64,000 nt of DNA from positions 248,001 to 312,000 of the forward strand of contig JANQQE010000011.1 in NCBI GenBank assembly GCA_028285105.1, read 5' to 3'. The stretch comes from Alphaproteobacteria bacterium (GTDB taxonomy: Bacteria > Planctomycetota > Phycisphaerae > UBA1845). This document shows, in pieces, positions 10,252 through 39,463 of the stretch (positions within the stretch are counted from its first letter, which is position 1; the number at the start of each line of letters is the position of its first letter). Both the position numbers and the translations under genes were made by a program. The notes under the pieces were generated by a model. That model did no database searches. It saw only the letters and a program-made list of their open reading frames with translations, and was not told the origin of the DNA.

Positions 10252-13200
10252 ATGGCCTTCGAGAAGGTAGAAACCAAAGTCGACTTTGCAGCCCAGGAAC
10301 GCCAGACGCTGAAATTCTGGGAAGAAATCAGCGCGTTCGACAAGCTTCGCAAGAAGAACCAAGGCAAGCCCCGCTGGTCATTTCTCGACGGACCGATCAC
10401 CGCCAACAACCCCATGGGCGTCCACCACGCCTGGGGCCGAACCTACAAAGACGTCTTCTGCCGATACTTCGCTGCCACCGGCCATGAGCTTCGTTATCAA
10501 AACGGTTTCGATTGTCAGGGCCTCTGGGTCGAAGTCGAAGTCGAGCGCGAGTTCGACATCAAAACCAAAGCCGACATCGAAGCACTCGGTCTCGACAAAT
10601 TTACGCAGGCCTGCAAAGAACGCGTCAACAAATATGCGGCGATCCAGTCGGAGCAATCCAAGCGCCTCGGTTACTGGATGGACTGGGACAACTCGTACTT
10701 CACGATGGCCCCCGAGAACAACTACACCATCTGGAGCTTTCTCAAGAAATGTCACGAAGGCGGTTTCATCTACAAAGGCACCGACGTAATGCCTTGGTCC
10801 GGTCGGGCTGGCTGTGCCTATTCGCACATGGAAATCGCCGAAGGCCGCAAGCTTGTGACGCATACATCGGTGTTTGTGCGCTTCCCGATTCGCAATCGCA
10901 AAGATGAATACCTGCTGGTCTGGACGACGACGCCCTGGACGCTTACGTCGAATACCGGATGCGCCGTCAATGGCGACCTTCAGTACGTCAAGCTTCAAGC
11001 CAAACGCGACGGTGCGATCTACTACTTCGCCGAAGAGAATTTACAGTTCCAGCGGTTGGCCAAGGAATACAAGGAAGGCTTCGGCGGCAAACCCTGGCCG
11101 AAAGACACGCCCAAACTCAAGACCCTTCACCAGATTTTTCAGGAGAAAGGTGGTTACGAAGTTCTTGGCAAGGTCAAAGGCAGCGAATTGGTCGGACTCA
11201 CGTACGACGGTCCATTCGATGAACTGCCCGCCCAACAACAACGCGGAGGCTACGCCCATCCGTTGGAGATGATTCCGCAGGATCAACGCGATTGGCCAAG
11301 CGGTGCAGAAGGTCACCGTGTATTCGATCCCGGTAAAACGTCGAAGGGCGAAGCATACGTGGTGGCTGGCGAGGGAACGGGCATCGTTCATTCAGCCCCC
11401 GGTTGCGGTGATGTCGATAACGCTTGGGGCAAAACGCAGAAGATCGTAGCCATCGCTCCGCTCGATGCCGAGGCCCGATTTACGGAAGGCTTTGGCCCGT
11501 TCACTGGCAAGCGCGCCACTGATCGCGAAACGGTCGATGCAATTCTCGACAACCTCCGCGAAAAGGGATTGCTCGTCGCCCACGAGGAATATCCGCACAT
11601 CTATCCGCACTGTTGGCGGACCGGCGATGAATTGGTGTTTCGACTCGTGGACGAGTGGTACATCTCGATGGACTGGCGCGAGGAGATCAAGAAGGTCGCG
11701 TCGCAGGTCAACTGGCTGCCCGCATCGATGCGCGGAAAAGAGCGAGAGATCGATTGGCTCAACACCATGCGCGACTGGATGATTTCCAAGAAGCGCTATT
11801 GGGGTTTGGCCCTGCCGATCTGGGAGTGTCCCGAGTGCGGTCACTTCGATGTCATCGGTGGGCATGACGAACTGAAGGAACGCGCGGTTTCGGGTTGGGA
11901 AGAATTCGACGGCCATACGCCTCACCGCCCGTATGTCGATGCCGTCAAGATCGCCTGCAACAAGTGTCAGTGTCAGAACATGGCACGCATTCCCGATGTT
12001 GGCAACCCGTGGTTGGATGCGGGCATCGTGGCGTACTCGACCACCAAGTACAATACCGATCGCGAATACTGGGACAAGTGGATTCCAGCTGACTTGATCA
12101 CGGAGTGCTTCCCCGGACAGTTCCGCAACTGGTTCTACGCCATCCTCGCGATGAGTACGATGATGGAGATGGGCAAGGAGAAACCGCGCCCGCCATTTAA
12201 GAATCTGCTCGGTCACGCGCTGGTACTCAATGAAGAGCGTCAGGCGATGCACAAGTCCGACGGTACGGCGATTTGGTTTGAAGAAGCGGCAGAGCAGTTG
12301 GGCGTCGATACCATGCGTTGGATGTACGCCTCGCAAACCCCGATCGCCGACTTGGCGTTCGGTACGCGGCATCCCGACGAGTCAATCACCATCAAAGTTG
12401 AAGACGGCATTGAAATGACACACACCGTCGGCGGTGACAGAATCTGTAGAGTCACCTCCACGCCTGCCGACGAAACCCGCCGCCGCGTGCTGCTGCCGCT
12501 TTGGAACACCTATGCATTCTTCTGCAACTACGCCCGCCTCGATGAATTCGACGTGGATGCTTCTCTCGTACCGTATGCCGATCGACCGGACATTGATCGC
12601 TGGATTCTCTCCGACTTGCAGCTGTTGATCCGCGACGCCCGGGCATCGTTTGAAGCGTTTGATTTGCAACCGGTTTGTGGCGCGGTCGAACGATTCATCG
12701 AGAACCTCAGCACGTGGTACATCCGTCGCAATCGCAGGCGTTTCTGGCGTGGCCCGGAAGCAGGCGACACGGATAAACTTGCCGCGTATCAAACGTTGTA
12801 TGAAGTGCTGGCGACGTTGAACAAGGTCATCGCGCCGATTTTACCGTTTGTCTCCGAACAGATTCATCAGAACCTCGTCGCCGATCAAACGAAGGATGCA
12901 CCGGAAAGCGTCCATCTCTGCGATTACCCGGAGGTCGATGAATCGCTGATCGACAACGCCTTGTCCGACAAGATGGCCGCCCTGCTCCGCATCGTGACGT
13001 TGGCGCGGTCGGCACGGGCCTCGTCGAAACTGAAAGTGCGTCAACCGCTTGCAGGCGTGCTCGTCAAACCAGCCAACGATGTCGAGCGGTCAGCCGTCGA
13101 ACACGCCGAATTCAAAAGCCACATTCTCGAAGAGTTGAACGTCAAGAATGTCGAAGCGCGCGACTCCGTGGACGAATTAATCTCACGCAAAGTCGAAGTC

Positions 13201-27118: not shown

Positions 27119-29551
27119 TCAGCTGCCAGCCAATGACCGGTACTGTAACCCGTACAGGAGTTCCAGATAGCGACGTGTTTCTTCGCGATCGATGTTGGTG
27201 ACGTACTTCCAGAATCCGTAAACCCGGGCGAGGGTCATCATCTTCTCGGCATACAGTTTCCAGGTGTAACCACCCTCAATTCGCGCAATGCCATTCTTGG
27301 AGGTCTGCTCCCAGGTCTTCGGCGTCTTGCTGCACTTATCGAGGAACTCGGCGATTAGATTTGCGGCTTCGTCACCGTGGTTGGGGTCAATATGGAAGCC
27401 CGATACACCGTCTTCGATGATCTCCGACGGTCCGCCATAGCAGGTGGCAAATGTCGGCAGTCCGGATGACATCGCTTCGACAACAGTCAGGCCATACGCC
27501 TCAAAGAGTGCTGGCTGAACGAACACGCCGCGGTGGTCGGCAACAAACCGATACAACTCGCCCACGAGGTTGCGCTCCGACTGAAAACCCAACCAACGGA
27601 ACTGCCCTTCCAAGTTGTGCTCATCGTACAACTCGTGCATTCGCTCAATCTGTTCGCGCTCTTCGTGATCGTTTGAGAGCGCCGGATCGAGATGCCCACC
27701 AACGACAAACAGATTCGCCAACTCGCGAAGTTGTTCGCAGCGGCCATACCAATCGACTAGACCATTGAGGTTCTTGATGCGATCCAACCGCGCCATGGTA
27801 AAGACGATCGGTTTCGATTCGTCGTTGAAATGCCCGCGATACGGCGATCCACCGCCGTCACCGAATACCATCTCGCGTAGTTCCGGCTCCAAGGCAGTCA
27901 ATCGACGTTTCGTATCGGAATACGGGAAGTAGATGTCTGGATCTGCACCCGGCGACACGATATTGAACTTGGGGTCGTGAACGTTGATGCCATTGACCAC
28001 GCGGTACAAGCCGGGCATCGTAAAAGACGAGTAGCTTTCGTACTGACCGACGCTGTCATCGGTACCGGCGATTTCCTGATACGTACTCGTAATGATGAAG
28101 TCGGCATTGTTCATCGCGATCAGATCGGCAGTGTATTGACACGCAAAATGGTACTGATCGTTGTTGTCTTTCCAATACAGATCGCTCAACAGGTACTTGG
28201 TTTTTTCGAGGGCGTGGGCGATATTGCACTGCGTCACATGCAGGCGGCGCGACATCAGCGTAGCCACCAGATTACCGTCGGAATAGTTACCGACGATCAA
28301 TCCCGGGTTGCCGCCCAATTCAGCAAGAACTTCCTTCTCTGCTTCCTCAGCAAACCGTTCGAGGTACGGCCAAATCTCGAAGCGTGATATCCAATTCGGA
28401 ATAATCTCGCCTTGAGTGTCACGAAATGGCACTCGCAGGATTCTGGCGTTGTTGGTCCCGATGATTTTTTCAGTGCGCTGATCGCAGGTGGTGCCATGCG
28501 CGTCTTGAATCAATCGGGTGACGACAAGTATCTGCGGTTCGAGCGTGATGCCTTGCTCATCAAGGCGCTTGCGCATTTCTGATTCCAGGGCCCGCGCCTG
28601 ATCCAGTATGTAGACCACCTGTCCACCCGTATCGGGCAGGCCCAATACGTTCGACTGTCCAAAGTAACCGTGCGGTGACAGGATCACGATGTTGAAAATC
28701 ATCGGGATGCGGGCCAGAAAGTTTTCGAGGACCCCAGGATCGGGTGCTTCAAGTGTATCCGACAGCATACGCAGCGTTTCGCGCATGCGTTCGACCGTCT
28801 TGCCCCAACCCATCTCGAACCCCAGCGATTCCAACTTCACCGACACGTCGTCCCAGGTTGCATCGTTCGGCTGTTTGCGCAGAAATTCATCCGCCTGTCG
28901 CAGTGCCCGGCGCAACTCGGTCACATCTTGAATCCGTCGACTCAACATCAACTGCCGACCCGAATATTGATGCAGACGCAAGAACTCCAGCAGACGCTGG
29001 TCACCCTTGTCCAAGTCCTGAAACAGATCGCTGGAGAGGCGACGGTTGAGGAAGCTCATCCCCTGACCGATCGATCGCGGTTCCTTCAGCATCGGGAAAC
29101 CTCGATTAAACGGCGTCAGATCAACTTCCATCTGCCACTGATCGCGCGAGTCCTGTCCATCGACCAACCGTTCTTTGACGGCGAGAAACTCGGAAACGTC
29201 GATTTCCTCGACATCCACCGCCTCTGCATGAAAGCGCAGAAACTGCCAGCGCCCCGGCCGCCAGCGAACCGAAATTGCCACCCAAGGCCCATCGATCGCA
29301 GCCTCCTCGCACGACCGCAACACGTCACCCAACGGCGACGAAAGAAGCGACGAGTTCTCCTGCTCGGCAGACAACGCCTCCATCGTTTCGCGCAGTTCGG
29401 AGCGCATCACGAACTTCTTGTCGAGCGCGGTGAATCTGCGCAGCAACAGGTACGCCTCATCGCGGTGTTCGCGCAGATAAGTCGAAAGCGACTCAGGCAC
29501 TGTTGACGGGTTCGGGCTTGTCTGATTCTGCGTTGACGAATTCTGGCTCAT
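27119..29551 (-). CDS. Sucrose synthase
   Basis: An 810-residue cytoplasmic GT4 enzyme, the same length as plant sucrose synthases. It reversibly converts sucrose and a nucleoside diphosphate to fructose and an NDP-sugar. The start is the ATG for MSQNSSTQ; a longer extension is in frame but lies inside the upstream gene. The N-terminal regulatory region (about 1-220) leads to the GT-B core with [37 protein letters not shown] and the donor-site region [20 protein letters not shown]. Its first 59 bases overlap the 3' end of the sucrose-phosphate synthase gene in another frame. This indicates tight co-expression of synthesis and cleavage. Confidence 0.93.
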
Positions 29552-31688
29552 GGAGTCGGATCTTTCCGAAGAAGTCGTAGTGTTCGATGCCTTCGATGAT
29601 TCCCCAGGCGTAGTTTTGTTCTGCGAAGTAGATGTGCGGTTCGCCACGAAGTTTCTCCAATTCCGGATCGTGGTTTCCGACCACCACACCCAGCGTATTA
29701 CCGGTCAACATTTCCTCATCATTGCCCGAATCGCCAGCCACCAGGCAGCGATCCGGTTCGACACCCCAGTTCATGGCAAAATATCGAAGCGCCATGCCCT
29801 TTGATGCTCTTATCGGCAAGATATCGAGGTATGCCCCGTGAGAAGCGATGACGTTGGCCTGCAAACGATTGCGCCGAAGGTGTCGTGTGACTTCGGCGGC
29901 GGTGGGTGCCTTCTCTTTAATCAGGTTAAAGCTGATTTTGTATTCAGTCTGCCCTTCCGAACCCTGGGGCTTGAGTCCGGGAAGTTCCGACATGGCCTCC
30001 CGGATTCGGTCCGGACGCCAGCGATAGCGAATGTGCTGCTCAAAACCGCGATCCTCAATTAAGGGAGCCCCATAATGTATTGCGCTTCCGACAGACGTAA
30101 TCAGTAGCTGCGGTGTCGGAATCTTCCATTCTTTCAGGACCGATAACGTCAGGTCGAGACTACGACCGGTCGCAATGCCGAATGCCACCTTCGACCCTAC
30201 GTCTTTAAGCCGCCGAATCAATTCGCGAAGTCCGGACTTGTCGCCTATGAGCGTGTTGTCTATGTCGCAGACAACAATGCGGTTGGCTGTCACCAGCCGG
30301 GCGCTCGAGCGCAGTGGCCGCCGTTTTCGATCCGCCGAGCGAATCGCAGTGTTCACTTTTTTGACATAATTCTTGACGTGCGCCGACCATGAATAATGTC
30401 GATGGGCACCGCGTAATCCTGAGCGTGACCACTTCTTCCACTGCCCCTGATTCGAAACCGCATCCAGCAACGCAACGCCCATCGCTTTCGTATCCAATGG
30501 GTCGATCAGGACGCCATTTTTGCAGTAGGCAACAATGTCGCGTGGACCGCCGTCTGATGTCGCCACGATCGGCAGACCGCTCGCTGCCGCCTCCAGCAGT
30601 GTCAGCCCAAACGGTTCGGTCAGTGCGGGATTAACGAATACGCCCTTCGTCTTCGCTGCAAGTTGATAAAGGTGCGGCACGTCCGACGATTCGTGGTCTT
30701 TCGGGTACGCGACCTGACCATACAGGTTGTAAAGATCAACGTTGTAAATAATCTCGTTGATCACTTCGCGGGCGCTGCGGTCGAGCTGATTGATGTCCGT
30801 TCGGTTGCCCGCAACGATGACCAAATTGGCGATGTCGCGAAGCTCCTCGTTTTTGGCATAGGCCTTGACCAGCGCAGTGATGTTCTTTCGCGGATCGGGA
30901 CGCGATACCGCGAGGATCATCGGACGGGCCCAGTCTTCGAGAAACGGCGTGATCGCTTTGTGAATCTTCGGCAGGTTGCGCCAACTGCGCGGGGGCGGCG
31001 TGAATCGACTCAAATCAACTGCCGGCGGAATAACCGTCATCCTCTTTGGCTGATAGTTGTCGTATAAGGCGTACTGTTCTTCAACTTCCTGATTCGTGCT
31101 GGTCACGACGAATGAGGCATTGTCGAGAGCGTATTCTTCGGCATCGATGCGGCGGGTGATGCGGTAGCGTTTTTCGATCGCCTCCTCAGCCATCCCCTGA
31201 TCGAGCAGCCGCTGGCGTTTGACCCGACCCAGCGAGTGGCCGGTGAACGCCATCGGGATGCCCAGCAGCGATGACATCCGCCCTGCCACATAGCCAGCAT
31301 CAGCATAGTGACCATGAATCAGATCGGGCACGCGCCCCTGATCTCGAAGGTATCGCAGCAGATTGTCGGTAAAGCTGTCGAGATGGGGCCAAAGCGACTC
31401 CTTGGCCAGATACCGCTTCGGACCGCACTCGATCCGTACGATGTTTACGCCCGGTGCCAGTTCTTCGACCGGTTCTGCGTAGGACGAATCCACTTTGGAA
31501 TCAATCAGGCGTCGGGTCACCAGATCGACCCGGTCGATTTCGGGGTCCTCGATCAGGGCGCGGGCCAACTCCACCACATAGGTGATCTGTCCACCCGTGT
31601 CGGGGTCGGCACCCAGTTCCATCTCCGAGCCGCGAACTCGGCCATGAACACTGACGAGCATGATGTAACGACCTCGTCCGTCCGCCAT
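29493..31688 (-). CDS. Sucrose-phosphate synthase with HAD phosphatase domain
   Basis: A 731-residue bifunctional enzyme that would make sucrose-6-phosphate from UDP-glucose and fructose-6-phosphate and dephosphorylate it. The ATG for [10 protein letters not shown] has AAAGGA six bases upstream, better than earlier GTG/ATG candidates. The GT4 domain (about 5-440) includes [37 protein letters not shown] and [20 protein letters not shown]. The C-terminal HAD domain (about 465-710) has the nucleophile motif DIDNTL and the GDSGNDEEM motif. Both catalytic signatures are present, so the phosphatase half may be active, unlike many synthases that carry a dead copy. It leads the operon with sucrose synthase. 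Confidence 0.92.
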
Positions 31689-31898
31689 CTGCATTCCTTT
31701 GTATTTCACAAATTACCGGTCGAGATAACGTCCTTCACAGGCTAAGAGCTTTTCGCTTGAATGCAAATAGAACGCGAAAACCGCAATAATCACAGGGGTT
31801 TGCTGAATACTGTTGAATGTATGCATATTCGCATATGATTGGCCGCAAGATGTGAAATGCTTTCGCACGACAAAATGGACTGAGGAGAATCGGGTTAA

Positions 31899-32834
31899 AT
31901 GACAACGCAATTGATGTGCATGTTGGCCGTCGGGTTGATGCAACCGAGCGCGGTCGAACTCTCTGCGAGGCTCAATGCGGACGAGTTGAAGGTCGGCGAA
32001 ACGTATCAACTGGAATTCAATTGGGACGTTGCTTCCGACGCTGCGGTCGACCAAGCCGGCGTCCCCGTTCCCCTCATTCAGATCGATGTTCCCGATTCTG
32101 TCGAATTGGTGGGCAAGGCACTGAAAGGGCACAAGGAACTCGCCAAGAACGAGTTTCTGTACGCCCCGTATGAGCGGGCCCTCGAAGCGAAGAGCGAATC
32201 GATCGCGTTCAAACTGCGCTCAGAACCGAAACTCGAAGATCGAATCGCCATCAATTTCATCGCCTATTCCACAGCGGCAGACGGTTCGAGCCAGTTTGTT
32301 CGGAAACGCATTGCGACGCCAATCACAGCCAATGCAGATGGTAGAGAGGTCGAAATCGGTGATGCAGCCTGGGGCCGTAACAACTTCGGGAAGATAGGCG
32401 ACAAGGTCAAACCCTTCTCGCTCCCCCAAGCCGACGGTTCTCAGGTCGATCTCGGCGAAATGCTTGGCAAGTCGAATGTCATCATCACCACCTACCGGGC
32501 GTTCTGGTGACCGTTCTGTGCAAAGCAACTGGTTCAGTTGCAGGAACGCTACGACGATTTCGAAAAGCTCGATACCAAGGTTGTTGCCGTTGCACAGGAG
32601 GACAAGGATCTTGCGTCTCATGCCAAATTCCTGAAGCACTTCGACCCGTCTCCCCGATTCAAGGTGACCGCCGACATTGAAGGCAAAACGAAGGGCCGAT
32701 ATCATCAGACCTCGGCTTACCTGATTGATAAGTCCGGCTACATTCGCGAGATTTTCCCCATGATGATTCACCATCGTGCTTCGTGGGATACCATCTTGAA
32801 GCGGATCGAAGCGGTAAACCAGGAAGGCCGATAA
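31899..32834 (+). CDS. Probable selenoprotein, peroxiredoxin/thioredoxin-fold UxxC oxidoreductase
   Basis: Read through a TGA at 32508-32510, this is one 311-residue protein with selenocysteine at 204. GGAGAA lies upstream of the ATG. A short hydrophobic N-terminus (possible signal) and a beta-rich domain (about 20-145) precede an AhpC/TSA-type thioredoxin fold (about 160-310). At its redox site the frame reads TYRAFW, TGA, PFCAKQL, so the codon normally used for the first cysteine of a WCPFC motif is TGA and the second cysteine is kept. The same frame continues for 107 codons with family sequence (VAVAQEDKD, FKVTADIEGK, YLIDKSGYIREIFPM). A SECIS-like hairpin follows. A nonsense mutation is the alternative. 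Confidence 0.82.
32512..32548 (+). other. SECIS-like hairpin after the in-frame TGA
   Basis: The upper stem GCAACT/AGTTGC (32525-32530 with 32536-32541) closes a five-base loop GGTTC. The lower stem CGTTC/GAACG (32512-32516 with 32544-32548) is separated from it by an asymmetric internal loop. The apical loop starts 21 bases after the TGA and begins with G. This matches the general geometry of bacterial SECIS elements bound by SelB. Confidence 0.72.
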
Positions 32835-33274
32835 GGCATCGCTTCAAAACGTCATAAATCGCGTTGTACAAAATCCGACAAACGCACTGAGTACGCAACG
32901 TCCCATATCGGTCAAGATTCATAAGTGGTGCGTTCATCGAGACTTGACTGGACACCTGTGGATCGACGACAATCGCGATTGAATGTTTGTCACCATGCTG
33001 CCTAGCATGACAGAAACCGCGATTTCAAAGGGCGTCATCAGGCGTGTTGTCGCCCCGCCAATGGACTTTCAAAATCTTCAACTGATGACCTCGGGGCGGG
33101 AATCAAGCGTATCGAGCGCGAACACTTTACAACTTGCTGATTTTCGGAAGCCGGCGTTACATGACAGCGGCATCTAATACAACTTCAGAACACCGAATGC
33201 CAGGTTAATTGGCATAAAGACAAATTCTGCTTGCTGGTTTGCAGGACAATTAAACGAGCCATTGGGGAGCTGCC
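32835..33274. other. Intergenic region with a long imperfect hairpin
   Basis: These 440 bases have no supported gene. An imperfect hairpin spans 32971-33024, with AATCGCG/CGCGATT outer arms and a CATGCT/AGCATG tip. It has no T run. The remainder should hold the promoter of the metalloprotease gene. Confidence 0.5.
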
Positions 33275-36200
33275 GTGAAAACCAATTCATCCACACGAGG
33301 AATCTTCAACTGGACCTGCGGGGCTCTCGCCTTTGCATTCGTCTTTTCGATCTTTGTCGCCACCAATGCCGTTGCAGAAGAGCGAAAATTCGCGGTCATG
33401 ATGGTCGTTCCGCCCAAGTCGGTGACGGGAGGATATCCACCTGCGAGCGTGACCGGAGTCGACCGCGGCGACATTTTCGATCAGTACTTTGACGACTTCA
33501 ATCCGACCATCGATTCGTTCGCGGAATACTGGAATGAAATCTCCTACGGACAAGTCACGGTCACGGGAGACGTATTTGACTGGGGCGAGGTACCCTGGCC
33601 GCTCATTCCGCCGGGCTCTCCCGACGATTTGCCCTACACGAGTCTGACCACTTTTGTCTACGAATCATTTGTGGGGGAAGAATTCACACAAAGTCGGCAG
33701 ATGTTTCGCATCGACTACAACGGTGAGTTGTACGAAAACAACAGTACAGGCACATCCGATGATCCGCTGGCCAACGTTGAAATCTTCCCGCCAGGGTTGG
33801 AAGACTACGATACGAATGGCGCGCCCGTCTGGACACCGGGAGAGCGATTCATCGATCTCAATGGAAACGGTCGTTACGATGCTCTCATAGAAGATACGGC
33901 GGACGGTTTCAAGGGATCTTCTGATAATGACCTCGGTGATCCGGTCCCGGATTGCACGCCTGATGGCGAGATCGATTCCGAAGAATTCTGCGATTTGGAC
34001 AATGACGACGATTGGGACTACCCGGAACCGTTTGAAGACTTCCTAGTCATATACGATCCAAATCCCCCGGATCCCGATGACAGGTGGCGCAAGCTCGACC
34101 CAAGCCCCAACAATACGTTTGAAGGCGACGCTGAAACAGTTGGAAGCCGCGTCTGGGCGGAAGCTTACATCCGTCGAAATTACCCGGGCGACGCCGATGC
34201 GTTGATCGCTCGGTGCGGAAATGGCGTTTACGATGGCCCCGACGCCTGGACAGAAAAAGGAAACACCAAGCTCCAGCAGCAACCCGTTATGTTTCGGGCT
34301 GTCGATACTTTTGCGCCCGGAGAATTATATCCGTCGATGGTTTCCTATGAAGAGTGGTGGGAAGAATACTGGCGCGATGAGCACATTGATAGCGGGATTG
34401 TTCCTCCGCCCGCTCCTCCAGCACCGGAATGGGAAACCTCAATACCGAATATTGCTGATTTCGATCCAAACTCCCCAGCTGTCGGAGGCGATCGATCTTT
34501 TAATCCAAACGCCGGTGGAACCAATGTTCGCACTGGAAATGAGTGCATTCCCGATGCGGAGGTCGGAGAAAACGAATGCGGTTCGCCGGATGTTGAGGAA
34601 GCCTTTACAGGCGACGGATTTGACTCCGAGAATCCCAATGGTGGGGGCGGTAGTCTGTACCCAGACACGACTGGGTACTACGATGGTCCAGCGGAATTCC
34701 GGGACTTACCATCGTCGATCTATCATACACGCAGTTTTTCAGGTGGCAGGCCTGTCTACTCCGGTTACGAACATTTTGGGTTCATCAATACCAACAATCT
34801 TGATCCAATGGCTCCGAGCATATCGGGGCAATGGTACGGAGGTGATGGACGGTTTGGTGAAGTCACATCGCCGTTCAACGATCGGGACTGGGGGCATGAC
34901 CGAGGCACCAATAATCCTAATAGTGCGAGTGGACCTGACTCCATCATTCCAGCTTCAGGCCCGTTCGCATTCAATATCCACGGAACCGCCGGCTATGATG
35001 GTGGTAACCAGACGAGCCTGGAATTTCTAACTTGGCGTAAGGACGACGACGCCACTTCCAGCCGTGCGATGAAACGCGATTTCAATCTTGACGGACTGCT
35101 CGATCAAGGCGAAGTTCGAGCCCGAGGCACCGAAAACTACTCGGTGGATCTCGACATTGGAACAACGAACGACGGAGGTCCGGGAACACTCTATCCATTC
35201 AACCGACGCCGTCTCACTGAAGACGCCGTTGAAGTTCATGACAATTCCGCCGACTGGGACCTTTTGGTCATGCCTGTCGAAAACACGTTTTGCTTTACAC
35301 TTGATCTTCCATTCGGCGAGGAAGAGTTTTGTTTCGACCTGAGTTTCAATTTTCTGCACTCAACGTTTATCATACCGGCTGGCATCATTCCAACTGGATT
35401 GGCGCCGGGTGGTCGAGGACTGTTTCAGCTACCTGCGCCGGCGATGGACTTGCCCATTCAGGTGCGTGAAGATGAGCCGGGTGCACTCTCTCCGATCATT
35501 TTCTCCGATTTTGGCACGACGCTTGGTGACGTTGGAGAAGTTGGAACGACTGTGGGTGGACCTCTTGGTGGTGCTGGCAAGGAGCTCATGGTCCACGAAT
35601 GGTTACACGTTTGGGAACTCTATCCCGATCTCTACGACTATGACGAATATCTCCCTGGCGCGATCATCGACACGCCGGTTGGCGGATGGGATATTATGGC
35701 TGGCGGATTTGTTCATCCGGCACCTGTATTGAAAGAGAAATTCACGGGTACACCTTTCCTCGGAACCGCCCACCCGCCATGGATCGATCTGACCGATCTC
35801 GCTGACATTCTGCGCCCAGGCGAGCCAACAGAGATCGAACTCACTGACTTTGCCTTCGACCCGTCGCAGTCAGTGTACTATTACGAGAATCGAAACAAAG
35901 ACGCCGACCCTTCTCTCGAAGAGAGGTTCTACTTTTGGCGATTGACCAACGTTGATCCCCCGGATGAACCCGGCGCAGGTGGAAACAACATCAACTTCTC
36001 TAGATATGCACCGGGCGTGGGCATCGGTAACGGCATGATGCTGATGCACACCAACATTCCGCGATCGCTATTGGATGACCCGGAAGCCCAACCGCTTCAA
36101 CAACGCGTCGGTTCAAACTTCATTTATTCGATCATACAGGCTGACGGTGGCGAAGACGCCGGTGATCCCGGAGACCCATTCCCTGGCATAGCTGGCACCA

Positions 36201-39200
36201 CCGAATGGCGAGAGGATGCGACAGACCCGAACTCACGCTGGTATGGTCAAATCCGAAGCGGTATTGAAATCCTGGACATTGTTCAAGAAGCCCAAAGTTC
36301 GTTTGTGACATTCCTGTGGTCACCGCGACTTGTTCCGTTGCTTAACTTCCTAGATCCGCCTGGTGGATTGGTTGTGGGCGGTCAGTATCGTATCGCTTAC
36401 AACGCATTCGACTTTGATGGCGGAACCCAGATCGAGTTTTATTTTGATCAAGACAACACTGGCTATGACGGAACATTGTTGTCGCCGCCGGATACAAAAG
36501 GACCTGGGTTTGTCAATGGTACGTACGACGTCCAGTTGAACAGCCTTCCCGGCGATGGAACTTACTTCTTCTACGCCAGAATGGTCCCGGGTCCTGGACA
36601 GGATGGTCGAACCGACCCAAGCGCATCACCTGCCCGCCCGTTGGGCAGCAATCGTGGCAAGGGTAAAATCAGCAACGGTTCAGTCATGGTCGGAACGACT
36701 GGACTCTTCGAGGACCTGCCAGTTGAGGTCGATCTCGATACTTCAAAGATAGAATTGTGGGATGTCATTTGTATCGACGATTCGGTCCCTGGCTCGGAAG
36801 TTTGGCAGGTTGAAGGTGAAGTTTCTGGAGTTCAGGCGAATGCAACAACTGGTGTCGAGTACACGAGCGACGAGGGCGAAATCACATTTACCATCGATTG
36901 GACCGGCATCGAAGGTGACTCTGCCAACGTGTCCAATACCAACAACGTCTTCAGGCTGGTGGATACCAATGCCAGCTTTGCTGCGACGAACTTCCAGGCC
37001 AATGATATTGTTCGAATCACTGGAGGAAGCGGTGCTGTGCCGGGGTTTTATGACATCCTCTCAGTTCCATCGCCAAACGAATTGATCTTGGGCCAAAACC
37101 CTGGCAATAGCGGCAGTTCTGGCGATGTTACGTATCGTGTTCATAGTTTTTCCGCTGGCGATGCCGACGACGATGCCGATGCATTCACATTCTTCACGAC
37201 CGGCAAAACGATCTACAGCGCCCCAATTACATTCCTTAACGGCAACGTGCTTCCACGCTTGTTTCCGGAACTTGAAACTTCCAACCCTGATCCCGGCAAT
37301 GAACTAATCGTGCGCTTCGATGGGTCTGAAACCCGCGATGAGTTCTTTCAGCTTGACAATCCAGACTTGAGTTTCACCTGGGATTTTGGTGACGGAGAAG
37401 ACATGGTCGGCACAGGTCCCGTTGTCGATCACACATATGCGATGCCCCAAGCGACCGGTGCCAACATACAGATGACGGTGGTGAACACTGCAACGGGTGT
37501 GACTTCGACGATTGAGCGATCGATCGACGTGGGGCCGCGTGACGACGATCTGGACGGCGTCGACAATGACAATGACAACTGTCCTCAAATACCCAACGCC
37601 ACTCAAGTCAACAACGATAACGACCCCTTTGGTGACGCTTGCGACGGTTGTCCATTCGATTCGTCAAAAATTGCCCCAGATGTTTGCCCCTGCGGCGAAG
37701 TTCCGATCGATTCGCAGTGCACCGATAACTGCACTTGCATTCCCGACTGCAATACCAACGGTATCGCCGACACGATCGATCTGCTCGGATTGTCCGAAGA
37801 CTGTGACGGGAATGGCATTCCTGACGAGTGCCAATCACAAGCCGATTGCGACAACGATGGCGATCTCGATTTCTGTGAAATTGCAGGGGGCAGCGAAGAC
37901 TGCAACGCAAACATCATTCCCGACGAATGCGAGTCGCAGGCCAACTGCAATAACAACGGCTTGCTCGACATTTGCGAACTCGATGGCAACGACTGCAATA
38001 ACAACAACATTCTCGATGAATGCGAGTCGCAGGACGATTGCAATAGCAACGGCACACAAGACATCTGCGAGATAGACGGCAACGATTGCAACGACAACGA
38101 TGTTCTTGATGTGTGTGACATCGCATCGGGCTTCAGCCCGGACGTCGATCAGACCGGCGTCCCGGACGAATGCGAGGACTGCAACAACAACCAGATTCTT
38201 GATTCGGTTGACATTGCCGATTGCCCGACCGGATTTGCCAATGCAGCCGAATGTGCCGACTGCAACAACGACCGCATACCGGACGGCTGCCAGGGCGATT
38301 CCGACAACGACGGTACGTTCAATCCGTGCGACGGCTGTCCGAACGACTTCTTGAAGATTGCACCGGGCACTTGTGGCTGCGGCACACCGGAAACGGATAC
38401 CGACAGCGACGGAACGCCGAATTGCAACGACGGCTGCCCGACCGATCCGTCCAAGACGTCGCAAGGCAGTTGCGGTTGCGGCCAATCTGAAACGGATACG
38501 GATGGCGATACGGTTCCGGATTGCATCGACGTCTGCACCAATGGCACGGGCGACGAAGCCGACGATCGCATTGACTCCGACAACGACGGCACGCCCGATT
38601 GTGTTGACGAATGTCCCGACGACGCCAACGAGATCGATGCCGGCGAATGCGGTTGCGGCGTGGCTGAAGAGGATCCCGATTTCGACGGAATCCCCGACTG
38701 CAACGACAACTGTCCGCTGAACGCCAATGCAAATCAGACCGACAGCGATGGCGATGGCCGGGGCGATGCGTGCGACGCATGTCCGAACGATGCCAACAAG
38801 ACTGCCGTCGGCGTTTGCGGCTGCGGTGCTGTCGATTCCGATGGTGATGGCGACGGCGATCTCGACTGCAACGACAACTGTCCCGACACGTCCAACGCCA
38901 ACCAAGCCGACAGCGACGGTGACGGCGCGGGCGATGCTTGCGACGATTGCCCGAATGACCCGAACAAGGATGCCGTCGGCGAATGCGGTTGCGGAGTCGC
39001 CGATACCGATTCAGACGTGGACGGCGTGCCGAATTGCAACGACATCTGCCAGGGTACGCCACCGGGAACGGCTGTCGATGACGACGGATGTGCCATCCCG
39101 CTGCCGCAAACCGGCCTGCCGGGTTCGGATTGCGAAACGACGGCTGATTGTGTGGATGGTGGCGAATGCATCAACAGCATTTGCACGATGACGAGCAACG

Positions 39201-39463
39201 GCTGTGCAACGTCGCAGGATTGTCCGCAAGGCGAATCGTGCGTTGATGGCGAATGCATGGCTCCGGAAGCGGCGTGCTCAGCCAACAGCGACTGTCCGAC
39301 CGGTCAGAATTGCGTCGATGGTGAGTGTGTCGCCAGCGATGGTGACGACGTCGCAGATTGCGGAGCGGATGTGCCATGCGGTGGAACCGGCTCTGCCGCA
39401 ATGCTGATGCTGCTTCTCGGGTTTACCCGCATGAAAGCCCGACGACCGAAACGTCGGCGATAA
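33275..39463 (+). CDS. Giant secreted M6-like metalloprotease with PKD, TSP3 and C-terminal sorting tail
   Basis: A 2062-residue exported protein with a GTG start preceded by GGGGAG. A signal peptide ends near NAVAEE. The N-terminal domain resembles immune inhibitor A/M6 proteases. The zinc site is HEWLHVWELYPDLYDYD (His774, Glu775, His778), followed by GGWDIMAGG as in that family. A PKD-like domain (about 1340-1410, with FTWDFGDGED) is followed by a long run of thrombospondin type 3 and Asp-Cys-Asn repeats (about 1420-1930), then EGF-like Cys motifs. The end is CGGTGSAAMLMLLLGFTR plus an Arg/Lys cluster, a tripartite surface-sorting signal. It is probably a surface protease stabilised by calcium. 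A strong terminator follows. Confidence 0.88.
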   Translation: MKTNSSTRGIFNWTCGALAFAFVFSIFVATNAVAEERKFAVMMVVPPKSVTGGYPPASVTGVDRGDIFDQYFDDFNPTIDSFAEYWNEISYGQVTVTGDVFDWGEVPWPLIPPGSPDDLPYTSLTTFVYESFVGEEFTQSRQMFRIDYNGELYENNSTGTSDDPLANVEIFPPGLEDYDTNGAPVWTPGERFIDLNGNGRYDALIEDTADGFKGSSDNDLGDPVPDCTPDGEIDSEEFCDLDNDDDWDYPEPFEDFLVIYDPNPPDPDDRWRKLDPSPNNTFEGDAETVGSRVWAEAYIRRNYPGDADALIARCGNGVYDGPDAWTEKGNTKLQQQPVMFRAVDTFAPGELYPSMVSYEEWWEEYWRDEHIDSGIVPPPAPPAPEWETSIPNIADFDPNSPAVGGDRSFNPNAGGTNVRTGNECIPDAEVGENECGSPDVEEAFTGDGFDSENPNGGGGSLYPDTTGYYDGPAEFRDLPSSIYHTRSFSGGRPVYSGYEHFGFINTNNLDPMAPSISGQWYGGDGRFGEVTSPFNDRDWGHDRGTNNPNSASGPDSIIPASGPFAFNIHGTAGYDGGNQTSLEFLTWRKDDDATSSRAMKRDFNLDGLLDQGEVRARGTENYSVDLDIGTTNDGGPGTLYPFNRRRLTEDAVEVHDNSADWDLLVMPVENTFCFTLDLPFGEEEFCFDLSFNFLHSTFIIPAGIIPTGLAPGGRGLFQLPAPAMDLPIQVREDEPGALSPIIFSDFGTTLGDVGEVGTTVGGPLGGAGKELMVHEWLHVWELYPDLYDYDEYLPGAIIDTPVGGWDIMAGGFVHPAPVLKEKFTGTPFLGTAHPPWIDLTDLADILRPGEPTEIELTDFAFDPSQSVYYYENRNKDADPSLEERFYFWRLTNVDPPDEPGAGGNNINFSRYAPGVGIGNGMMLMHTNIPRSLLDDPEAQPLQQRVGSNFIYSIIQADGGEDAGDPGDPFPGIAGTTEWREDATDPNSRWYGQIRSGIEILDIVQEAQSSFVTFLWSPRLVPLLNFLDPPGGLVVGGQYRIAYNAFDFDGGTQIEFYFDQDNTGYDGTLLSPPDTKGPGFVNGTYDVQLNSLPGDGTYFFYARMVPGPGQDGRTDPSASPARPLGSNRGKGKISNGSVMVGTTGLFEDLPVEVDLDTSKIELWDVICIDDSVPGSEVWQVEGEVSGVQANATTGVEYTSDEGEITFTIDWTGIEGDSANVSNTNNVFRLVDTNASFAATNFQANDIVRITGGSGAVPGFYDILSVPSPNELILGQNPGNSGSSGDVTYRVHSFSAGDADDDADAFTFFTTGKTIYSAPITFLNGNVLPRLFPELETSNPDPGNELIVRFDGSETRDEFFQLDNPDLSFTWDFGDGEDMVGTGPVVDHTYAMPQATGANIQMTVVNTATGVTSTIERSIDVGPRDDDLDGVDNDNDNCPQIPNATQVNNDNDPFGDACDGCPFDSSKIAPDVCPCGEVPIDSQCTDNCTCIPDCNTNGIADTIDLLGLSEDCDGNGIPDECQSQADCDNDGDLDFCEIAGGSEDCNANIIPDECESQANCNNNGLLDICELDGNDCNNNNILDECESQDDCNSNGTQDICEIDGNDCNDNDVLDVCDIASGFSPDVDQTGVPDECEDCNNNQILDSVDIADCPTGFANAAECADCNNDRIPDGCQGDSDNDGTFNPCDGCPNDFLKIAPGTCGCGTPETDTDSDGTPNCNDGCPTDPSKTSQGSCGCGQSETDTDGDTVPDCIDVCTNGTGDEADDRIDSDNDGTPDCVDECPDDANEIDAGECGCGVAEEDPDFDGIPDCNDNCPLNANANQTDSDGDGRGDACDACPNDANKTAVGVCGCGAVDSDGDGDGDLDCNDNCPDTSNANQADSDGDGAGDACDDCPNDPNKDAVGECGCGVADTDSDVDGVPNCNDICQGTPPGTAVDDDGCAIPLPQTGLPGSDCETTADCVDGGECINSICTMTSNGCATSQDCPQGESCVDGECMAPEAACSANSDCPTGQNCVDGECVASDGDDVADCGADVPCGGTGSAAMLMLLLGFTRMKARRPKRRR
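37550..39060. repeat. TSP3/Asp-Cys-Asn coding repeats
   Basis: Degenerate in-frame repeats encoding DxDxDG and DCNxN calcium motifs. Their low complexity keeps several other frames open for hundreds of bases. Those frames, including a long one on the minus strand, are artefacts. Confidence 0.8.

Follow-up and report, generated by a model that had tools for sequence, protein, structure and literature searches.

A probable selenoprotein gene of Phycisphaerae joining an N-terminal beta-sandwich to a peroxiredoxin-like UxxC domain

The interrupted reading frame and its neighbourhood

The analysed stretch of planctomycete DNA (the window, 64,000 nucleotides) contains on its forward strand a reading frame of 311 codons and a terminal TAA (31899-32834), predicted to encode a selenoprotein with a short hydrophobic N-terminus, a beta-sandwich domain and a UxxC domain of the AhpC/TSA type. 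By direct reading of the sequence, a Shine-Dalgarno-like GAGGAG (31882-31887, forward strand) is located 11 nt upstream of the ATG, and the codon directly 5' of this ATG is an in-frame TAA, so that no ATG of the frame lies further upstream than 31899. The only interruption is a TGA at codon 204 (32508-32510, forward strand), which is followed by 107 sense codons and the TAA. This codon, the putative Sec204, takes the place of the redox cysteine as the first residue of the motif U-P-F-C (WUPFC with the preceding tryptophan), and its putative partner, Cys207, is encoded at 32517-32519 of the same strand. The frame continues in one and the same domain past the TGA, as had been proposed: residues 166-284 (32394-32750, forward strand) were matched across it by the Pfam family AhpC-TSA (PF00578; 2e-17, 63.7 bits against a cut-off of 26), and the match of Redoxin (PF08534; 5e-12) also spans the TGA. 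The list of ORFs obtained under standard rules contains exactly two fragments here, 31899-32510 (203 aa) and 32538-32834 (98 aa, TTG start), which is the split that the preliminary description expected of gene callers. Among the 2375 TGA triplets of the window, only three are flanked on both sides by open frames of this length; the other two frames (31716-32843 and 11044-12381, both antisense) were rejected as shadows of long coding ORFs on the opposite strand.

Upstream, on the reverse strand, there are two paralogous glycosyltransferase genes (27119-31709), which we take to be of the sucrose synthase / sucrose-phosphate synthase type, the second one having a phosphatase-like C-terminal part. 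Downstream, a gene on the forward strand (33275-39463) encodes a secreted-looking protein of 2062 aa with many Asp/Asn/Cys-rich repeats, which is about 80% conserved in relatives. The interval separating this large gene from the interrupted one shows no conspicuous promoter or terminator. In close Phycisphaerae relatives, both the large protein and the neighbouring glycosyltransferase genes are conserved beside the interrupted gene.

Distribution and conservation of the TGA codon

Close relatives retrieved by a GTDB scan belong to Phycisphaerae MAGs (UBA1845, OFTM112), in line with the earlier assignment to planctomycetes. When 397 genomes of the class were searched with a profile, 33 full-length loci were recovered, all with the TGA; a survey of 392 genomes from the phylum yielded seven other genomes with full-length relatives, each having one TGA, which falls in the same codon when read as Sec (identity 29 to 80%). 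In total, 39 planctomycete genomes, from Phycisphaerae as well as from further families of the phylum, contain about 40 distinct full-length loci, all of them interrupted by an in-frame TGA and the most distant having about 29% identity; in 36 of the loci the position was verified to the codon, and the remaining ones were assessed by stop count only. The gene is thus widespread rather than a single case. Among the roughly 750 planctomycete genomes sampled, none showed a cysteine version of the two-domain protein. No relative was found in phages, and plasmids contained relatives of the Trx domain only. In 40 close genomes the N-terminal domain occurs in at most one place per genome, and the places that could be checked are the selenoprotein gene.

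The UGA codon is identical in all 36 aligned full-length members and Cys207 forms an invariant column, so that UxxC is found in every member; the motif reads WUPFC in 25 of them, WUPYC in seven, and differently in four others. One divergent member (L015, genome G135) has RRATUGRC, in which the tryptophan and the proline of the motif are lost and UxxC is kept. Between 102 and 122 codons follow the TGA in all members. Shorter homologues, which lack the N-terminal domain, contain either cysteine or Sec at this site (RAHWCPFC and RANWCPFC are examples with cysteine), which agrees with the earlier proposal that the TGA stands for the first cysteine of a WCPFC motif of which Cys207 is retained. An in-frame UGA at the cysteine site of homologues is therefore combined in this gene with conserved coding sequence beyond it.

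The hairpin downstream of the UGA

A hairpin core at 32525-32541 (forward strand; GCAACTG-GTT-CAGTTGC) consists of a 7-bp stem and the loop GUU (32532-32534), whose G lies 21 nt past the UGA; its folding energy is -8.9 kcal/mol. The model of bacterial SECIS elements has a loop of 3-9 nt with G in one of its first two positions, a stem of 4-16 bp, a distance of 16-37 nt from the UGA and a minimum free energy of -7.5 or lower (PMC13188914). With a 3-nt loop starting with G, the hairpin is within all of these ranges, and the spacing and the G-starting loop noticed at the outset are accordingly of the bSECIS type. Across 36 distinct sequences 98.4% of the cells in the stem are paired, compared with 91.2% after shuffling and at most 29.4% when the stem is slid by one base. 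Changes on both sides of the stem compensate each other at four of the seven pairs, one of which (pair 27-37) links position 3 of the Gln210 codon to position 1 of the Leu214 codon, two positions that can vary without changing the protein. This pair is A-U in 25, G-C in nine and G-U in two of the 36 sequences and never A-C; since the relatives share ancestry, these counts are not independent events. The loop starts with GU in 27 sequences and with GG in nine (Val or Gly in the protein), its G being invariant and followed by G or U in 36 of 36.

The hairpin overlaps conserved QLVQL codons, which favour a palindrome, and for this reason synonymous controls on single genes are less telling (p from 0.006 to 0.18, 0.095 for the gene in the window). 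Some cysteine homologues also fold at the hairpin site (L021, -8.9). The case for a SECIS element rests on the whole sequence set, the controls on single genes being weaker. A search of Rfam at the hairpin gave nothing meaningful. The preliminary description had a two-part hairpin beginning two bases after the TGA; its upper stem is real and conserved, but in the relatives the lower stem pairs in 55.6% of cells, a level that shuffled sequences also reach, and it was rejected as a conserved feature, the two-part form being true of the window sequence only.

Selenocysteine machinery

The host genome (4.81 Mb, 36 contigs, 97.8% complete) encodes all the components whose presence had been suggested as a check and whose lack would have spoken against a selenoprotein. 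The genes selB (C15:24970-26844, 345 bits) and selA (C15:27126-28220, 492 bits) adjoin each other on contig 15, selD is located on another contig (C23:120945-121868, also L054:1501-2424; 368 bits), and a tRNA-Sec with the anticodon TCA, the selC product, was found at C1:257767-257861 (67.7 bits against a gathering score of 47). The selD gene of this genome appears to be a selenoprotein gene too, having an in-frame TGA in CAGUAGKL.

In the phylum sample, selB was above the cut-off in 40 of 43 genomes with a TGA-containing homologue and in 25 of 68 with a TGA-free one (Fisher p 1e-9, a value inflated by the relatedness of the genomes, from hand-compiled lists). Within the order selB is near-universal (74 of 80 genomes) and hence uninformative. 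Three of the 33 gene carriers had selB below the cut-off; all three genomes are fragmented (81-85% completeness), and one contains a partial selB. SelA, SelB, SelD and tRNA-Sec of the host very probably decode UGA204 as selenocysteine, with the hairpin at 32525-32541 directing the insertion.

Alternative explanations of the in-frame TGA

In-frame stops are usually caused by pseudogenisation or error, and the source assembly is fragmented into 36 contigs, so the TGA might have arisen recently by nonsense mutation or be a TGC/TGT that was called wrongly. The probability of this is nevertheless negligible: the same TGA codon is found at about 40 loci, in 39 genomes from several families of planctomycetes, and the length after the TGA is maintained in all members. 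A sequencing error at 32508-32510 is excluded, because the identical codon recurs in dozens of independent genomes. The downstream half shows no decay either, the dN/dS ratio being 0.065-0.166 after the TGA and 0.083-0.171 before it (Nei-Gojobori, against three close relatives; with dS above 1 the absolute values are rough), both halves of the gene thus being under equal purifying selection. Pseudogene and error were therefore rejected on the conserved TGA and the downstream dN/dS. No more credible is a pair of independent genes, one encoding 203 aa up to the UGA and the other 98 aa from TTG 32538, with the hairpin as a by-product of the QLVQL codons, even though exactly these two appear in the standard ORF list. 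Translation from the TTG would omit UxxC and start midway through a helix of a single domain running through the TGA; moreover, the codons from the UGA to the TTG are conserved, and the covariation of a synonymous pair and the invariant loop G with G or U beside it also contradict this explanation.

Insertion of a standard amino acid into the active site, by readthrough of the UGA with a near-cognate tRNA or by reassignment of UGA to Trp, is very unlikely. Some readthrough occurs in any bacterium, and the identity of the inserted residue does not follow from an RNA hairpin alone; however, homologues have the catalytic cysteine at this site, the genome encodes tRNA-Sec and SelB, and the hairpin fits the bSECIS model. 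Reassignment was rejected, since UGA still terminates 11 of the 36 family genes (TAG 14, TAA 11, TGA 11). Almost certainly, then, the internal TGA encodes selenocysteine and the two ORF fragments are one redox enzyme. We are highly confident that this is a true bacterial selenoprotein gene, whose UGA204 would be read as Sec by means of the organism's own machinery and the hairpin, and whose product would be a two-domain thiol/selenol oxidoreductase, probably an exported one.

Domain organisation and predicted function

In the AlphaFold model of the protein (pLDDT 86, pTM 0.84), a beta-sandwich at the N-terminus (about residues 18-145) precedes a peroxiredoxin-like thioredoxin fold, in which Sec204 begins the active-site helix. 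The C-terminal domain is matched in fold by peroxiredoxins (Z about 19 over 146 residues) and by ResA, and PF00578 was matched in all ten members tested, as is characteristic of Prx-like UxxC selenoproteins. In NCBIfam no curated cut-off was reached, the best scores being 45.4 of 170 for ResA and 35.7 of 120 for SelL_rel_redox. The PxxxTxxC motif of peroxiredoxins is absent from this domain, so the thiol-disulfide UxxC type is the better model.

The beta-sandwich domain (31950-32378, forward strand; about residues 18-160, pLDDT 87.5) has no conserved cysteine, and no Pfam family matched it in the 36 members. Its first Foldseek hit was DsbD_N (E 2.3e-3, TM 0.33, with a poor superposition of rmsd 8.9), and hhalign gave E 0.0027 and a probability of 11% for the same family. 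Naming the domain by PDB folds was rejected: the matches are a generic mix of beta-sandwiches, with Z up to 8.9 for unrelated proteins, and DsbD_N is absent from the VIA-align list.

Three other UxxC selenoproteins from planctomycete genomes (L016, L017 and L018 of G066, G058 and G383) represent a second two-domain type: they have an AhpC-like domain with WWULFC or WWULYC, a hairpin of the same type downstream of the UGA and then a DsbD_N-like C-terminal domain with two cysteines; in L017 and L018 this is a real DsbD_N domain.

The only cysteine besides Cys207 is Cys7, within the N-terminal hydrophobic stretch, which leaves Sec204 and Cys207 as the only candidate redox residues; this pair would cycle between the selenol/thiol and selenenylsulfide forms. 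As the N-terminus of the window protein has no basic n-region, export is uncertain. The protein is most likely a periplasmic selenol/thiol oxidoreductase that reduces disulfides or peroxides; chemistry, export, substrate and partner are all predicted features.

Comparison with known selenoproteins

UxxC selenoproteins with PF00578 or PF08534 have been established by computation (PMC13188914, PMC1794560, PMC2398784). Among them are the Prx-like thiol:disulfide oxidoreductases with PF00578 and UxxC or UxxU (PMC13188914 Table 1, PMC1794560; Prx-like 1 in PMC2398784) and the Redoxin family with PF08534 and UxxC (PMC13188914). The planctomycete protein resembles the former in having Sec as the first residue of UxxC, a bacterial SECIS right after the UGA and cysteine homologues, and the latter in its Redoxin match through the TGA; unlike Prx-like selenoproteins, this family adds an N-terminal beta-sandwich, and no two-domain form with cysteine was seen. 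Marine metagenomes have yielded fused Prx-like selenoproteins (Prx-like 3 / Unknown_3; PMC2398784); these likewise join a Prx-like selenoprotein to an extra domain, a likeness at the level of their published description. With TlpA, ResA and DsbE the protein shares the thioredoxin fold and the position of the WCxxC motif, ResA being a strong match in sequence and fold; it differs from them by Sec in place of the first cysteine, by the added beta-sandwich and by NCBIfam scores far under the cut-offs. Peroxiredoxins (AhpC, Prx1-6, PrxU) are the best fold matches of the C-terminal domain, but their classical PxxxT/SxxC active site is absent (TTYRAFWU at 197-204) and the UxxC pair is present instead. 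DsbD_N (PF11412), the top Foldseek match of the isolated N-terminal domain with weak scores, differs in that the planctomycete domain contains no redox cysteines, has no Pfam match and is N- rather than C-terminal.

Two further kinds of UxxC selenoprotein were observed: one with HWUPPC and a CTSCH motif in its N-terminal part, possibly a cytochrome c fusion (L027:838-1734, G020), and putative membrane-anchored Prx-like proteins with RGFWUPFC and several N-terminal hydrophobic stretches (L034 and L035, G151 and G226).

The preliminary description regarded Prx-like UxxC selenoproteins as known and the two-domain form as possibly undescribed. The former is borne out by the published kin. As to the latter, no description of this architecture was found in the main texts searched; with about 40 loci it constitutes a family, and its published kin, fused Prx-like selenoproteins among them, place it within a known kind. 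Selenoproteins were reported from two planctomycetes of Porphyra, in a main text that does not contain 'peroxiredoxin', 'redoxin' or 'AhpC' (PMC4807772), and Planctomycetota go unmentioned in a review of prokaryotic selenoproteins from 2026. The novelty of the beta-sandwich/UxxC fusion is therefore probable, and the Sec-only two-domain architecture, which occurs in Phycisphaerae as well as in other families of the phylum, seems to be a previously undescribed variant of the known UxxC type. Opinion is evenly balanced on the stronger statement, an undescribed selenoprotein family of Planctomycetota in which the beta-sandwich is fixed to the UxxC Prx-like domain and Sec is obligatory.

Implications

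Standard gene calling would split each member of the family at the TGA and lose the active site, which would make the family invisible in annotation. The SECIS hairpin of these genes and the sequence coding for QL-V/G-QL are jointly constrained. The finding extends the poorly charted selenoproteome of Planctomycetota, and the family is a clear case of seemingly fixed Sec, with no cysteine version across widely diverged planctomycetes. If Sec is truly obligatory, unlike in most selenoprotein families, this would suggest an envelope reaction in which selenium is irreplaceable by sulfur.
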